Both the position numbers and the translations under genes were made by a program. From the NCBI GenBank assembly GCA_943736015.1, contig OX031057.1, forward strand, positions 59,974,001 to 60,038,000: a DNA stretch of 64,000 nucleotides. Reading direction: 5' to 3'. Source of the DNA: Tridacna crocea. Its lineage: Eukaryota > Mollusca > Bivalvia > Cardiida > Cardiidae. A model generated the notes under the pieces. It did no database searches and was not told the DNA's origin. It saw nothing but the letters and a program-made list of their open reading frames with translations. Below are positions 6,206 through 62,006 of this stretch, in pieces (within the stretch, counting starts at the first letter, position 1; each line of letters begins with the position of its first letter).

Positions 6206-7204
6206 TTTTAGTTAACTGTAATGGCTGAAAGCCAGCAGAGCCTGTCTTGACATGGTTCTTGCTTCTGCCCATCCATTTGTCTTTTTCTTGTTTACATGAC
6301 AAAGTGTGCACTGTAGTTGGGATTTTTGTCACACTTCCACAGTTTGTTTTTATCATCAATAGCTTGACCCTATTAATTTTGTAAAAAAAAATCTATCAGT
6401 ATTCAGTAAGGGAAAAGCTGCCATTTCACTTTGAAAATTTACATATGTTGTAGATAAAGTCTGTATTAGTGGTCAAGTTTTCATGAAACTTACACAGTTT
6501 CTTTTCAACATCAATAGCTCGAATCCTAACAATTTACAAAGAATCTGATAGTTTGAAAATACACAAATTTCTTGTTTAAGTGATATTTAAATCTGCATTT
6601 GTGATTTGATTTTCATGAAACTTGCACAGCTGTTATATGTCCTATAGTTTATACCCTAAAGATCTTGAAATAAAAATCTGACAATTAGTGAGGGAAAAGT
6701 AGACATCTAAAGTTGAAAATTAACATTTCTTGTTGACATGATTAAAGCCAAATTTTTTATCCAGCTCTGTTGAGACTTGCAAAACTTGCACTTGTCATAA
6801 TGTATCAAGGGATTAAACCCTATTAAAAATCAAGAAAATCAAGCCATCAGTTTAGGAAAAGCAGTCATTTGATGATTTATTCTTGATTACTCAACACAGC
6901 CACTATTTTGGGTTACATTCCTTTGAAATTTGTAAGGATTGTTTTTCTGAAACCCTATCAGATTTGACCGGATTGCAAATTACTGGTTTTGAAACATTGC
7001 ACTTCTATTTCTTCTTTATTCGTTCAATTCACCATGCCTTAGCTTCCTTTGCTATATGAGTGGGTGCAAGCCAAGTCCCAACCCCCCACCCATTTATTTG
7101 TGTGTGTGTTTGTCTTTTTGCATCATGAACCAGAGGATAAATGCTGGAAAATGTGCAAAATATCTGCCAGTAGAGCTATACATGCCCTCATGGACTTCTA
7201 GTGT
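6206..7204 (+). mobile_element. Type I Helentron-like element with tandem core (I1)
   Basis: Starts TTTTAGTTAACTGTAATGGC and ends CCAGTAGAGCTATACATGCC...GACTTCTAGTG, matching the ends of 45508-45903. The interior has about five diverged units with TTCATGAAACTTGCACAG, ATCAATAGCT..ACCCTA and TTTCTTGTTTACATGA. The 3' hairpin has decayed. Confidence 0.55.
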
Positions 7205-7207
7205 TTG

Positions 7208-7436
7208 TTAACCCATTACCAATCGACAATATTTTAGACTGGTCCAAATTGAAAGCATTTGCAGATGACAAAATAAAAGTGACTGAAAATTTGAAATTTG
7301 TTTTGTGAAGGGTAGAAAACATTGTGGGAAAAGGAGAAAATGCTGGTTACCAGCATTTTCTCCTTTTCCCACAATGTTTTCTAAAGGCTTCTTTCTCAGG
7401 GGCGTCAAAAGTAGGGATCGTTTGGTAATGGGTTAA
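7208..7436 (-). mobile_element. TTAA-MITE, full-length 229-bp reference copy
   Basis: This is one of the cleanest copies. It has TTAA at 7208 and 7433, inverted tips TTAACCCATTACC / GGTAATGGGTTAA and an outer arm with TTGAAAGCATTTGCAGATGAC. The core is an essentially perfect hairpin: AACATTGTGGGAAAAGGAG, then AAAATGCTGGTTACC and the mirror arm. The TTAA target with CCC(T/A)-type tips is what piggyBac transposons leave, and the absence of any ORF makes it a MITE. The autonomous partner is not in this window. Confidence 0.85.
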
Positions 7437-12087: not shown

Positions 12088-12325
12088 ACTGCCATTTACA
12101 ACTGCGAATGATTTTGTTAATGAATTATGAAAGTACATCAGAACATCTGCCTGTTTGAAAACTAGTATTGGGAGTCTACCTTTTCGGACTTGGTTCTCAT
12201 TGCTATTTGTGCATGGTAATTACCTTTTTAGGAAAGACTGACAATGGTTTCTGTTTAATAATCAGCAATTGAATGGGATTACCATTTCAACTGCTTGAAA
12301 TTTCAGCTCGAATTTCCCAATTCTG

Positions 12326-12545
12326 ATTCCCAAACGACAAATTTTAGACTCATCCAAAATGAAAGAGTTTGCAGATGACAGCTTTAACTTTCATAACAAT
12401 GGCAGAAAATTATCCGAAGGGGCAGAAAACACTGTGGGAAAAGGACAAATTCCTCGTTATTAGCAATTTATCCTTTTCCCACAGTGTTTCAAAAGACTTG
12501 TACTGCAGACACGTAAAAACAAGGGTTTGTTTGGGAAAGGGTTAA
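12326..12545 (-). mobile_element. TTAA-MITE, CTCGTTACGAG subfamily
   Basis: Sister of 38854-39081: GAAAGAGTTTGCAGATGACA, core GGACAAATTCCTCGTTATTAG with partly mirrored changes, and TGCAGACACGTAAAAAC. Right tip GGGAAAGGGTTAA; left TTAA lost (TGATTCCCAAAC). Confidence 0.75.
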
Positions 12546-13020: not shown

Positions 13021-13248
13021 GTAACCCATTACCACACAATCCCTACTTTTGATGCCCCTGAGAAAGAAGCCTTTTGAAAACACTGTGGGAAAAGGAGAAA
13101 ATGCTGGTAACTAGCATTTTCTCCTTTTCCCACAGTGTTTTCTACCCTTCCCAGAACAACTTTCAATTTTTCAGTCACCTTTATTTTGTCATCTGCAAAT
13201 GCTTTCAATTTGAACCAGTCCAAAATTTTGCCATCTGGTTATGAGGTA
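13021..13248 (+). mobile_element. TTAA-MITE, full length
   Basis: Left tip GTAACCCATTACCACACAAT. Both core arms carry the same change: AACACTGTGGG on the left and CCCACAGTGTT on the right. Right end TCTGGTTATGAGGTAAAG is mutated. Confidence 0.8.
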
Positions 13249-24945: not shown

Positions 24946-25175
24946 TTAACCCTTTACTCCATAGATACTCATTTTGACATACCAACAACAAACAGCTTTT
25001 GAAAACATTGTGGAAAAAGGACAAATTGCTCGTAATGAGCAATTTCTCCTTTTCCCACAATGTTTCCCACTCAATCAGATATTTGTATGCTCATTTGTCC
25101 ATATTTTTGACATCATATCTTTATTTGCTGCTGAAATGGAAGAGCCTCAAATTGGCATATCAGGTAAAGGGTTAA
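24946..25175 (+). mobile_element. TTAA-MITE, divergent subfamily with CTCGTAATGAG apex
   Basis: TTAA at 24946 and 25172, tips TTAACCCTTTACT / AGGTAAAGGGTTAA. Core GGACAAATTGCTCGTAATGAG. The outer arms (ATGGAAGAGCCTCAAATTGG) are unlike the common type, yet the length is still about 229 bp. Confidence 0.75.
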
Positions 25176-26082: not shown

Positions 26083-26304
26083 TTAACACTTTACCAAATC
26101 ACCCCTGGTTTTTACGACCTTGACCCTTGTTAAATCATTGTGGGAAAAGTAGAAAATGCTGGTAACCAGCATTTTCTCCTTTTCCCACAATGTTTTCTAT
26201 CCTGCTGGAAACAAATGACAGTTTTTGAAATGCTTTTATTCTGTCGTCTGCAAGTGCTTTCAATATTGACCCGTCTAAAACTTTTTCAGGAGGTAGAGAG
26301 TTAA
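26083..26304 (+). mobile_element. TTAA-MITE, shares TTAA with next copy
   Basis: Hairpin intact around GGTAACC; right end GGAGGTAGAGAGTTAA at 26301-26304. Arm type GGTTTTTACGACC. Confidence 0.8.
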
Positions 26305-26529
26305 CTCATTTCCAAACGACAATATTTTAGGTTTGACCAAATCAAAAGCATTTGCAGACGGCAAAATAAAAGGGACTGAAAATTTGAAATTTGTTTTGTG
26401 AAGAGTAGAAAACATTGTGGGAAAAGGAGAAAATGCTGGTTAACAGTATTTTCTCCTTTTCATACAATGGTTTCAAAAGGCTTCTTTCTCGGGGTCATCA
26501 AAAGTAGGGATTGTGTGGCAATGGGTTAA
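26301..26529 (-). mobile_element. TTAA-MITE, full length
   Basis: Begins at the TTAA that also closes the preceding copy and ends at TTAA 26526. Arm mismatch at GGTTAACAGTATTTTC. Confidence 0.85.
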
Positions 26530-27097: not shown

Positions 27098-27326
27098 TTA
27101 ACCCTTTACCCGATAAGGCATTTCTATGGTATCTCTAATTGACCCTAAATAACAGCAAGGAGGAAGCAGTTTCTTATGTGTACATGACACCTTTTGATAG
27201 CATAGAAAACATTGTGCCAAAAGGTGAAATTGCTCATGTCGAGCATTTTCACCTTTTGCCACAATGTTTTCCAAAGGCTCCTACAAGCAATGCGTAGAAA
27301 TGATTATCTATGGAGTAAAGGGTTAA
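27098..27326 (+). mobile_element. TTAA-MITE, CTCATGTCGAG subfamily
   Basis: TTAA at 27098 and 27323, exactly 229 bp. Core GCCAAAAGGTGAAATTGCTC pairs with GAGCATTTTCACCTTTTGGC-type sequence, so the arms changed together (GGGAAAAGGAG to GCCAAAAGGTG). The outer arms are unrelated to the common type. Confidence 0.8.
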
Positions 27327-28982: not shown

Positions 28983-29101
28983 GTAGTCAGTTGAATGTGC
29001 AGACACAGACTTAATTTGCCTGTGGATTCTCTATTGTGTAACTGACAGTTTGTCCCGTACATTTTCTTTGCCAGACAACAAAACTTCAGACTTGTTCATA
29101 T

Positions 29102-29330
29102 TTAACTCTTTAACATTTGACAAAATTTTTGGCTTGTCCAAATTGAAAGAATTTGCAGACGACAAAATAAGAGTGACTGAAAAATTGAAATTTGTTTTGT
29201 GAATGGTAGAAAACATTGTAGGAAAAGGAGAAAATGCTGGTTACCAGCATTTTCTCCTTTTCCCACCATGTTTTCTAAAAGCTTCTTTCTCAGGGTGGTC
29301 AAAAGTACGGATTGTGTGGTAATGGGTTAA
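29102..29330 (-). mobile_element. TTAA-MITE, full length, shares TTAA with next copy
   Basis: TTAA at 29102 and 29327; 229 bp. Core with TAGGAAAAGG / TTTTCCCACCATG. Confidence 0.85.
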
Positions 29331-29562
29331 CTCTTTCCCAAATGACAAAATTGTTCAGACTGGCCCAACTTGAAATTACAAAGTCTTGCAGATGACAAAA
29401 TAAAGGTAACACAAAAATCGAAATTTGTTTCCAGCAGGGTAGAAAACATTGTGGGAAAAAAAGAAAATGCTGGTTACCAGCATTTGTCCTTTTCTCACAA
29501 TGTTTTCTAAAGGCCTCCATCTTGGGGTCGTAAAAAAAACAGATGGTTTGGTAAATGGTTAA
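29327..29562 (-). mobile_element. TTAA-MITE, second of an abutting pair
   Basis: Starts at the TTAA closing the previous copy, ends at TTAA 29559. Left arm carries an insertion (AAATTACAAAGTCTTGCAG). Confidence 0.8.
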
Positions 29563-31073: not shown

Positions 31074-31296
31074 TTAATTCTTTACCAAACAATCCCTGGA
31101 TTTTACACCCTGAGATAGAAGCCTTTTGAAAACACTGTGGGAAAAGGAGAAAATGCTGGTACCAGCATTTTCTCCTTTTCCCACAATGTTTTCTACCCTG
31201 CTAGATATGAATTTAATTTTTGAAGTGGGTTTATTTTGTCTGTAAGTGCTTTCAGTTTGGACCTGTCTAAAATTATGGGGTTGGGTAAAGGGTTAA
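31074..31296 (+). mobile_element. TTAA-MITE, full length
   Basis: TTAA at 31074 and 31293. Apex shortened to GCTGGTACCAGC. Arm variants AACACTGTGGG left, CCCACAATGTT right (not matched). Confidence 0.85.
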
Positions 31297-38853: not shown

Positions 38854-39081
38854 TTAACCGTTTCCCAAATGACAAATTTTGGACTCTTCCAAACCAAAAG
38901 AGTTTGCAGACGACAATTTTAGATTTGGAGAAAATGGCAGAAAGTTCTCAAAATGGGTAAAAAACACTGTGGGAAAAGGAGAAATTGCTCGTTACGAGCA
39001 ATTTCTCCTTTTCCCACAGTGTTTTCAAAAGACTTTTACTGCAGACACGTAAAAACGGGGACTTGTTTAGGAAAGGGCTAA
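38854..39081 (-). mobile_element. TTAA-MITE, CTCGTTACGAG subfamily
   Basis: Perfect hairpin of this subfamily: CACTGTGGGAAAAGGAGAAA and ATTGCTCGTTACGAGCAAT. Outer arm shared with 12326-12545 (TGCAGACACGTAAAAAC). Ends TTAACCG / GGGCTAA. Confidence 0.85.
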
Positions 39082-44420: not shown

Positions 44421-44620
44421 GAGGGCACACATTCACCAACCATTCTTAAGAATGTTCTTGGTCTCAGTCTCCCGCATTTTCTAAATTTGAAAGTAACTCA
44501 ACTTCTGATTGGCTAAACCAAATGGTTTAGCCAATCAGAAGTTGAGTTACTTTCAAATTTGGAAATTCTTGGAGAAAAAGACTAAGAATATTCTTAAGAA
44601 CGGTAGGTTAACACGGGCCC
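44421..44620. mobile_element. Foldback element with two 98-bp arms
   Basis: Arms mirror around GGCTAAACCA-AAT-GGTTTAGCC (centre about 44522). The inner 45 bp, including TCAACTTCTGATTGG, are perfect. Outer tips GGGCACACATTCACC / GGTTAACACGGGCCC. No ORF of its own; the 84-codon ORF across it continues into unique DNA without known motif. Confidence 0.75.
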
Positions 44621-50070: not shown

Positions 50071-50125
50071 CGAAAGTTGACCTGTCAAATACAGCTATTA
50101 AATATATAAGCAAACAGAGGAGACC

Positions 50126-51828: not shown

Positions 51829-52057
51829 TTAACCCTTTACCAAACAATCCCTACATTTTACGATCCTGAGATAGAAGCCTTTTGAAAAGATTGTGGGAAA
51901 AGGAGAAAATGCTGGTAACCAGCATTTTCTCCTTTTCCCACAATCTTTTCTACCCTACTGGAAACAAATTTCAATTTTTGACTTACAGTTATTCTGTCTT
52001 CAGCAAGTTCTTTCAGTTTGGATTAATCTAAAATTTTGTTGTTTGGTAAAGAGTTAA
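51829..52057 (+). mobile_element. TTAA-MITE, full length, arms changed together
   Basis: 229 bp, TTAA at 51829 and 52054. GATTGTGGG at 51889 is matched by CCCACAATC at 51937 where almost all other copies have CATTGTGGG / CCCACAATG. Confidence 0.85.
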
Positions 52058-55239: not shown

Positions 55240-55405
55240 AAACTTTTATCATATGGGAACAACAAATTAAATGTAGCTCATTTGATTGGATTTGTTTGTG
55301 AAAGGTCAGAAAACATTGTGAGAAAAGGAGAAAATGCTGTTTACTAGCATTTTCTCTTTTTGCCGGTGTTTACAAATCTCCCTTAGTAGTTAAAATTTGA
55401 GATTA
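55240..55405 (-). mobile_element. TTAA-MITE, decayed
   Basis: GAAAATGCTGTTTACTAGCA with arms ACATTGTGAGAAAAGG; right end lost. Confidence 0.55.
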
Positions 55406-55641
55406 ACTCATTACCAAACAACAAAAATTTAGGTTTGTCCATATTGAAAGCATTTGCACAGGACAAATTAAATAAAAGTGATTGAAAATTTAAAATTTGT
55501 TTTGTGAAGGGTAGAAAACAGGTTATAATGGAAATTGGAGAGAATGCTGGTTACCAGCATTCTCCTCCTTTTCCCACAATGTTTTCTAATAGCTTCTTTT
55601 TCAGGGTCATCAAAAGTAGGGATTATCTGGTAATTGGTTAA
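55404..55641 (-). mobile_element. TTAA-MITE, arms changed together near apex
   Basis: TTAA at 55404 and 55638. AGAATGCTGGTTACCAGCAT and TCTCC show AGAATGCT mirrored by AGCATTCT. Distal left arm is disrupted (ACAGGTTATAATGG). Confidence 0.75.
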
Positions 55642-55868: not shown

Positions 55869-56011
55869 ATTATACGCAAAGAATTGCAGAATTGTCTGAC
55901 CTAGCCCAGAGCATCTCCTGTTTCAGCCAATAATTCTTCTTTCTATTGGTCTCTGATACTGGTTATTTTAATGCTTTGCCTAAAAGACTTTTTTTTTATT
56001 CCATGTATTCT

Positions 56012-56105
56012 TGAAGAGGAGGCCTTTTGAAAACACTGCTGGAAAAGGAGAAAATACTGTTAACCAGTATGTTCTTACTTCTCCATGATGTTTTCTACCC
56101 TGTAA
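56012..56105 (+). mobile_element. TTAA-MITE, left arm and hairpin
   Basis: GGCCTTTTGAAAACACTGCT and AAAATACTGTTAACCAGTAT (the ACT/AGT change is present on both sides). Confidence 0.6.
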
Positions 56106-56107
56106 AA

Positions 56108-56200
56108 GACTAACTCTTTACCACACAACAAAATTTTACAACGGTCCAAATTGATAGCATTTGCTGACGACAAAATGAACGCAACTCTAAAAATTGATGT
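56108..56200 (-). mobile_element. TTAA-MITE outer-arm fragment
   Basis: CTAACTCTTTACCACACAAC, GGTCCAAATTGATAGCATTT; no hairpin. Abuts the previous copy. Confidence 0.6.
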
Positions 56201-60797: not shown

Positions 60798-61010
60798 TTA
60801 ACCCATTACCAATTTACCACACAATCCCTACTTTTGACGACCCTGAGAAAGATGCCTTTAGAAAACATTGTGGGAAAAGGAGAAAATGCTGGTAATGTTT
60901 TCTACCCTTCACAAAACAAATTTCAAACTCTCAGCCACTTTTGTTTTGTTGTCTGCAAGTGCTTTCGTTTTGGACACACAAAAAATTTTGTGGCTCGGTA
61001 AAGAGTTTAA
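60798..61010 (+). mobile_element. TTAA-MITE, hairpin arm deleted, shares TTAA
   Basis: AAAATGCTGGTAATGTTTTC: right arm lost at the microhomology AATG. The left tip ATTACC is partly duplicated. TTAA at 60798 and 61007. Confidence 0.85.
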
Positions 61011-61235
61011 CTCATTACCACACGAGAAAATTTTGGACTGGTCCAAATTGAAAGCATTTGCAGACGACAAAATAAAGGTGACTGAAAAATTGAAATTTGT
61101 ACTGGGAAGGGTAGAAAACACTGGGGGAAAAGGAGAAAATGCTGGTTACCAGCATTTTCTCCTTTTCCCACAGTGTTTTCAAAAGGCTTCTTTCTCAGGG
61201 GCATCAAAAGTAGGGATTGAGTGGTAATGGGTTAA
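61007..61235 (-). mobile_element. TTAA-MITE, full length, second of an abutting pair
   Basis: 229 bp, TTAA at 61007 and 61232. AACACTGGGGG left, CCCACAGTGTT right. Confidence 0.85.
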
Positions 61236-61799
61236 TGTGCATATTAGGTAATTGGTAGACACACAATACAAACAGGTTTTTGTGCCATCTATGCAAAATA
61301 TCCACAGGGACTGGTGATTTCCATTAAAGCTTATGTTTATTGTGATTCAGTCATGATTCTTTGATGCCACTTCAGACAAGTCATTTATGTATCAAATCCT
61401 ACAGGAATAGTTGCTTAATAGTAAACTTTGAGTTGTCCAAACAAGTAAAGGTGAGTGTTCAGACATTATAAAATCCAGATAGGATTGTGCAGGAATCGTG
61501 TGCTGATTTTGAATCTATACCGTACAATAATGTGTGATTGGTCAGCTGAAGATGACAAATTCAGGGCACATTCTAAGAACAGAAAATGACATTTCAGTTA
61601 AGTAGCAGACTTGAGTATAGGATATTGCTATTCTAATTACTGTTGTATTCATAATTCAGACTTGTATGATAATTTTTTATGACCACAGAGACCTTTTAGG
61701 GCATTAATTATCGACTTTTGATGCTATGAAGGATTGAAATGTACTTTTCTAGGATTTTTTGTACAGTTACTGGTCTTTACTGCATTGTACTAGCAAACT
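61236..61799. other. Unassigned sequence
   Basis: No gene; faint trace of the GATC-palindrome motif near 61480 (GATAGGATTGTGCAGG). Confidence 0.35.
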
Positions 61800-62006
61800 T
61801 GTAACACCATGAAAATGAAGACTTATGAAAACATTGTGGGAAAAGGGGAACATGCTGGTAAACAGCATGTTCTCCTTTTTCCAAAATGTTTTCTTCCCTA
61901 TAAATGATGATTTCCACAGTTTTAGCCAAATTTGATTTCACAACTGCATTAAATTTTGCTATGGGTTTGGACAGGCCTAGATTTTTGCCATGTGGTAAAG
62001 GGTTAA
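61800..62006 (+). mobile_element. TTAA-MITE, arms changed together
   Basis: GGAACATGCTGGTAAACAGC, ATGTTCTCC: the change to ACATGCT is mirrored by AGCATGT. Right end GTGGTAAAGGGTTAA (62003); left tip short. Confidence 0.75.

Follow-up and report, generated by a model that had tools for sequence, protein, structure and literature searches.

The MITE copy at 51829-52057 of the window raises the question of how a palindrome comes to carry the same change on both of its arms. The window is the whole analysed stretch of 64 kb (36% GC), taken from the 1,048,827,098-base genome of Tridacna crocea (31 contigs). In this copy a C-G pair has become G-C, a change listed as 51889/51937 in the initial annotation, and 33 of 33 pairs are intact. 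Matched changes of this kind could be inherited from a source element, could arise in the copy itself, or could reflect chance coincidence on two drifting arms.

A profile built from the window found 89 non-overlapping matches there, covering 14,596 bp and all belonging to one element of 227-229 bp. Density was also sampled at fixed coordinates on 18 contigs, in 20 stretches of 10 kb each; 18 of the 20 contained matches, 173 in all, which made up 14.9% of the sampled bases. The share of window bases was higher (22.8%). The element contains an off-centre palindrome with 33 paired bases on each side of a single base. TTAA was found at the start and end of 96 of the 103 copies with both profile ends, a count that is partly built in, since the profile holds three of the four TTAA bases at each end. 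The ends read CCCTTTACC... at one side and ...GGTAAAGAG or GGG at the other. The whole-element DNA fold of the 51829 copy had a z-score of -10.8. Seven pairs of full copies abut with one TTAA in common (window 26083-26529 and 29101-29562; L006, L015, L023 and L037), an arrangement that insertion into the TTAA at the edge of an existing copy would produce.

Judged by its TTAA and CCC ends, the element looks like a piggyBac-type MITE, a non-autonomous TTAA element. The likeness lies in TTAA at both ends, ends beginning with CCC, short terminal repeats, the lack of a codon-position pattern in the differences among its subfamilies, and the presence of intact piggyBac transposase genes in the same genome (at least 118 PF13843 matches). 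It differs from piggyBac-type TTAA miniature elements in that its central 33-bp palindrome is more conserved than its spacers. Three piggyBac genes (C3:66851558-66852652, C18:30428954-30430048 and C4:69349889-69350983) had equal scores and an open frame of 624 residues each, which suggests recent activity. An autonomous partner with MITE ends is hinted at by one candidate end only: the flank of one piggyBac gene has TTAACCCTTTATA, and CCCTTTA is common to it and the MITE end. No second end was found for this candidate, and the flanks of another piggyBac lineage showed nothing. A MITE copy of the CACTG/CAGTG type (L051:9-229) lies directly upstream of an intact piggyBac gene and is followed at L051:275 by TTAACCCTTTATATACGAG, a possible autonomous end.

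A coding function of the MITE was considered and rejected: differences between the A and B consensus were distributed 18/16/13 by codon position, without a pattern, and no frame of the A, B or C consensus was free of stops. MITE translations occur in thousands of predicted proteins (4,897 and 7,376 matches; protein database matches P0001-P0235), among them the B-type hairpin translation GEIARYEQFLL. These predicted proteins are probably annotation artefacts. ARAGORN returned no match on the window, and no relatives of the MITE were found in the viral contigs, prokaryote genomes and phages searched. MicroRNA hairpins can derive from MITEs; hsa-mir-548 is reported to come from the MITE Made1 (PMC1784062). 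A transcript of the present MITE would also be predicted to fold into a hairpin. It differs from such MITE-derived microRNA hairpins in that no Rfam family matched it, or any other part of the window, at the gathering threshold.

Table 1. Window positions of the MITE copies and hairpin parts discussed in the text.
Feature	Position	Strand	Remark
MITE copy in question, TTAA to TTAA	51829..52057	+	sequence; profile match 51830-52056
Left hairpin arm, 33 nt, profile columns 54-86	51884..51916	+	pairs perfectly with right arm
Right hairpin arm, 33 nt, profile columns 88-120	51918..51950	+	single centre base 51917
Left base of matched pair C-G to G-C, profile 59	51889..51889	+	partner 51945
Right base of matched pair, profile 115	51945..51945	+	partner 51889
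MITE copy, CACTG/CAGTG, pair 61/113	13022..13247	+	sister of 61008-61234, spacer-only tree 0.939
MITE copy, sister of 13022 copy	61008..61234	-	carries matched pair 61/113 too
MITE copy, subfamily B type	38855..39079	-	matched pairs 61, 79, 84
MITE copy, sister of 38855 copy, support 0.859	12323..12544	-	matched pairs 61, 79
MITE copy, subfamily C, GCCAAAAGGTG hairpin	27099..27325	-	matched pairs 67, 74, 84
Divergent MITE copy, matched pairs 79, 84	24947..25174	+	sister of 27099, spacer-only tree 0.994
MITE copy, matched A-T to G-C at pair 77	55404..55640	-	5/33 pairs broken
Partial MITE copy, matched pair 81 (G-C to A-T)	56010..56114	+	12/33 pairs broken
MITE copy, matched A-T to C-G at pair 78	61799..62005	+	4/33 pairs broken
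MITE copy, unmatched changes	26302..26528	-	5/33 pairs broken, 0 matched
MITE copy, one-sided change at pair 61	31076..31295	+	1/33 broken
MITE copy, consensus stem	7209..7435	-	33/33 pairs intact

Every copy for which the initial annotation had listed matched arm changes was found to have the arms described. The change was T-A to C-G at 13076 and 38951, with two more matched pairs in the 38951 copy, A-T to C-G at 61850, A-T to G-C at 55541 and G-C to A-T at 56048; three matched pairs were present at 27213. Unmatched copies exist as well, as had been noted (26437, with 0 matched and 5/33 pairs broken; 31130, with 1/33 broken). The further statement that the arms change together within single copies held only in part. 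The states at 13076, 38951 and 27213 are best read as inherited subfamily states, and the 51889 state, far from being unique to its copy, was found in 65 copies genome-wide.

The 66 window copies in which 10 or more pairs were usable had 22 matched changes, 17 unmatched doubles and 270 one-sided changes. All three null models predicted fewer matched changes: 8.5 when letters were permuted among copies (0/2000 permutations reached 22), 8.9 for decoy pairs of the same base class, and 11.4 under a copy-by-column rate model (p = 0.004). A larger sample of 421 matches included 293 copies with at least 20 usable pairs. In these 293 copies, which were selected by a profile that rewards conserved stems and so favours low arm divergence, and in which loci L002-L030 are the best matches to the 51829 element rather than random ones, 180 matched cells were observed against 66.3 expected. 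Unmatched doubles numbered 71 against 79.5 expected. Locus L001, a duplicate of a window copy, was left out of the counts. At L041:813-8382 a single partial MITE occurs five times in tandem, spaced about 1.85 kb apart. This array was excluded from the spacer clustering, the variant-frequency counts and the count of 234 group-A copies described below. A nearest-neighbour ancestor test was also tried and set aside: matched changes exceeded decoys (9-53 vs 1.6-21), but so did unmatched doubles at true pairs, from 8 vs 2.3 at the strictest setting to 39 vs 35.9 at the loosest. This unmatched excess comes from the pairing of hot columns with one another and from variants that are still shared, and the copy-by-column model was therefore preferred.

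Most of the matched-change excess is ancestry. In a tree of 39 copies built from spacers only, with the stem unseen, the copies at 13022 and 61008 (0.939), 24947 and 27099 (0.994), and 12323 and 38855 (0.859) were sisters, and these six copies contain 12 of the 22 matched cells of the window. When they and the copy at 50125 were removed, the remaining 59 copies had 10 matched changes, compared with 9.8 under the rate model and 8.3 by decoys (p = 0.27). The absence of an excess after subfamily ancestry is accounted for, which the initial annotation had named as evidence against its proposal, is thus roughly what the window gives. Forty of these 59 copies had 28 or more usable pairs; they showed 8 matched changes against 5.2 under the rate model (p = 0.16) and 3.7 by decoys (p = 0.005).

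In the larger sample, pairs 61, 67, 74, 79 and 84 hold 111 of the 180 matched cells in the 293 copies, and they co-occur in recurring combinations (haplotypes). Assigned to spacer clusters, matched pairs 67 and 74 belong to C, 79 and 84 to both B and C, and 61 to B and to 12 of 66 main-cluster copies. In this clustering, which left out 79 of 235 copies in clusters smaller than 3, none of the 17 cluster-C copies had the A pair at 67 or 74 and none of the 8 cluster-B copies had it at 79; hairpin exchange between subfamilies is therefore not frequent. Ancestry does not obviously explain pair 73 (73/101). It accounts for 12 matched cells in the 293 copies, 11 of them G-C to A-T; the 11 A-T copies are only loosely related, with a spacer divergence of 0.255 from their own consensus, and none of the 11 lies in the eight largest spacer clusters. 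Pair 73/101 is a second candidate for repeated rewriting.

Subfamilies differ far more in their spacers than in their stems. Compared with A, subfamily C kept 48% and 40% of its two spacers (shuffled 26% and 28%) and 88% of each arm, and in subfamily B the corresponding figures were 67% for the spacers and 91% for each arm. Fixed stem differences from A involve four pairs in C and three in B, and 7/7 are compensated. As B and C had been chosen by hairpin letters in this comparison, clusters made from spacer columns only served as the unbiased check; in those with at least 6 copies, 7/7 fixed stem differences were again compensated. Two broken fixed stem differences, in clusters of 4 and 3 copies, count against constraint on source elements.

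Variant frequencies in the six clusters of at least 6 copies bear on the same point. The arm/spacer ratio was 0.80 for singletons per cell (182/9,618 vs 465/19,665) and 0.21 for common variants per site (7/396 vs 69/802), and the depletion of common relative to singleton variants in the arms was significant (odds ratio 0.26, p = 1.7e-4). New arm mutations therefore arise at a near-normal rate and seldom become common. We read this depletion as constraint on the elements that multiply. Transposition should need the terminal repeats. In these repeats common variants were not depleted relative to singletons (odds ratio 1.14, p = 0.71), which counts against the constraint reading.

The initial annotation had also argued that drift alone would break pairing, and after insertion this is mostly the case. 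The 234 copies of group A had 1,143 one-sided changes against 52 matched, indicating that pairing mostly decays. The matched changes exceeded the 39.7 expected (p = 0.04), in a group defined as copies without B or C hairpin letters and without matched 61 or 73, and hence biased against matched changes. At the 27 pairs outside 61, 67, 73, 74, 79 and 84, 239 group-A copies had 49 matched changes vs 30.5 expected (p = 0.001), with 5 of the 49 coming from one tandem array, and 36 unmatched doubles vs 42.4 expected. Grouped by spacer divergence, group-A matched changes showed no excess below 0.12 (1 vs 0.8; 28 copies), followed by 10 vs 5.1 (88 copies, p = 0.04) and 10 vs 5.9 (56 copies, p = 0.08) in the next classes and 23 vs 14.7 in the most diverged class (46 copies, p = 0.02).

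Some single copies combine matched changes with almost intact pairing. Two copies had at least two matched changes and at most one one-sided change, compared with 0.017 expected (0/1000 simulations reached 2), and three copies had at least one matched change and no one-sided change, compared with 0.25 expected (p = 0.002). Multi-base matched changes in one copy were found at L050/7416-7251 (pairs 67 and 68, adjacent) and L040/7815-7937 (pairs 59 and 61). The L050 copy is one of the two with at least two matched changes; its arm sequence has 192 genomic occurrences, and among the matches listed no other copy carries it on both arms.

Exact stems were then counted genome-wide with the rest of the 57-bp core held fixed, and 34,027 cores were found unchanged. 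At pair 59, the site of the 51889 change, 158 stems were changed on the left arm only and 65 were matched, compared with 0.73 expected when right-only stems are assumed equal to left-only ones. At pair 77, the site of the 55541 change, 59 left-only and 2 matched stems were found, with 0.10 expected under the same assumption (p = 0.005). The unpaired double of left 77 and right 115 had 0 occurrences genome-wide (0.27 expected). Doubles are thus not visibly raised by uneven age, on the basis of one control, which is thin. Scattered matched stems at one pair thus lie far above independence. The excess beyond subfamily ancestry that the initial annotation's proposal requires, roughly absent from the window, is seen at this scale in the 65 matched stems of the 51889 type against about 0.7.

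The relationships among these stems were followed through a 28-base arm present in 2,283 places; the first 100 of these gave 97 copies, 3 of them two-armed. These 3 were compared by spacer along with 51829 and L029, so that the comparison covered five of the 65 matched-59 copies. Their mean spacer distance was 0.268, similar to random quintets of like divergence (0.259), and each of the five has closer relatives without the matched state. Judged by their spacers, these five of the 65 do not form a clade; 51829 and L029 fall in one 45-copy spacer cluster. The matched fraction differed about ten-fold between the two pairs, with 65 matched vs about 316 one-sided at pair 59 and 2 vs about 118 at pair 77. 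Such a gap would not be expected were rewriting equally frequent at all pairs. The frequency of rewriting may vary along the stem, or else one or more small source families may have contributed a share of the 65 by inheritance.

The account that we consider rather likely has two layers, in which source palindromes are maintained and inherited and single near-perfect stems are occasionally rewritten from arm to arm. The central 33-bp palindrome would stay near-perfect in the elements that keep multiplying. Most matched changes would be fixed in a source element before its amplification and hence be common to its descendants, with pair 61 as the source state in part of the main family, 61+79+84 in B and 67+74+79+84 in C. 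An inserted copy would drift, and its pairing would mostly break. Now and then, in single near-perfect stems, one arm would be copied from the other, and we infer that such rewriting, rather than repeated inheritance, makes the scattered matched stems. The route is probably template switching, most plausibly by a polymerase that switches templates while the palindrome is folded back in replication or repair. Rewriting would also supply ready-made compensated stems for later sources, and the hairpin presumably helps the element spread. The initial annotation had offered rewriting and selection on pairing as alternatives. Both find a place here, at different levels: most of the excess is put down to constraint on source elements, and a probably minor part to rewriting. 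A stronger version, in which the rewriting rate depends strongly on the base pair (of the varied but otherwise perfect stems, about 17% matched at the outer pair and about 2% at the inner one) and self-templating feeds compensated palindromes to sources alongside selection, is tentative, and we hold it to be somewhat less probable than not.

Ancestry alone is the strongest competitor, although we regard it as unlikely. It holds that selection fixed the matched states in sources by two successive mutations, with no arm rewriting. It explains most of the matched cells in the five recurrent pairs (111 of 180) and the loss of the window excess without the 7 subfamily copies (10 vs 9.8), and the unusual abundance of matched stems at pair 59 relative to pair 77 is what a small source family would produce. 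However, the five compared matched-59 copies are not a clade by their spacers, copies matched at pair 73 do not cluster tightly by spacer, a single copy among the matches listed has the adjacent dinucleotide change in both arms, and two copies with several matched and almost no broken pairs stand against 0.017 expected.

In concerted evolution, broken palindromes would be repaired from other copies, with any arm as template, so that the arms are homogenised as one pool. The occurrence of the same matched states on different spacer backgrounds (59; 61 in the main family and B; 79 and 84 in B and C) agrees with this, as does the divergence of arms at 0.38-0.62 times the rate of spacers in all distance bins. 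Hairpin and spacer types are nevertheless unmixed in the B and C clusters (0/8 at 79; 0/17 at 67 and 74), and the arm singletons, at 0.80 of those in spacers, indicate that arms are not cleaned after insertion. We consider this explanation improbable. Independent drift with mutation hot spots and uneven copy age, and no special process, matches the window without its subfamily copies (10 vs 9.8) and the predominance of one-sided changes (1,143 vs 52), but is rejected in its pure form and is very improbable overall, as it is contradicted by the genome-wide counts at pairs 59 and 77 (65 vs about 0.7 and 2 vs 0.1 in otherwise perfect stems) together with the unpaired control (0 vs 0.27), and by the 7/7 compensated fixed subfamily differences in clusters of at least 6 copies.

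Five other palindrome families of the genome were counted against column composition with ancestry uncorrected, family iv by eye only. On this basis, family iii, with a GGATTAGCCTGCGC core, had 49 matched cells vs 15.6 and family ii had 5 vs 3.0; families v and vi had no matched cells. The GGATTAGCCTGCGC-core family was represented by 38 copies in the fetched loci, one of them at L036:7931-7975. An unrelated palindromic repeat with stems of 28-38 bp was observed at 44483-44560 of the window and at L042:6213-6290 and 6487-6546. By eye, its copies differ by compensated changes (AACTCAAC, AACACAAC and AACAGAAC, with matching right arms).

If the two-layer account is right, these MITEs would amount to a natural assay of hairpin template switching on a very large scale. 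How perfect palindromes survive under mutation, and whether compensatory doubles need selection, are questions that concern DNA palindromes as well as RNA stems. With at least 34,027 perfect 57-bp cores, together with their one-sided and matched neighbours, the denominators are large, and a matched fraction can be obtained for each pair and set against an unpaired double as control. Since compensated hairpin changes in this repeat family are mostly inheritance, they also serve as a warning against taking covariation in repeats as proof of function. Among the papers listed by literature searches, none dealt with arm covariation in MITE hairpins, a weak negative. MITE hairpins and template switching are each known; what is new is that the two come together in so many copies.

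Among the closest known systems are the template-switch mutations of inverted repeats and RNA stems. In Monttinen and Loytynoja 2022, fold-back priming fixes the stem while the loop is kept (PMC8794818), and Abraham and Hazkani-Covo 2021 name arm homogenisation and parallel events (PMC8604942). The signatures named in these papers are arm homogenisation, multibase matched changes and parallel origins; matched changes of the same kinds occur here, and their parallel origin is a candidate reading. Compared with the systems described there, the present one differs in its substrate, which consists of tens of thousands of perfect transposon palindromes, and in that source inheritance accounts for most of the matched changes.
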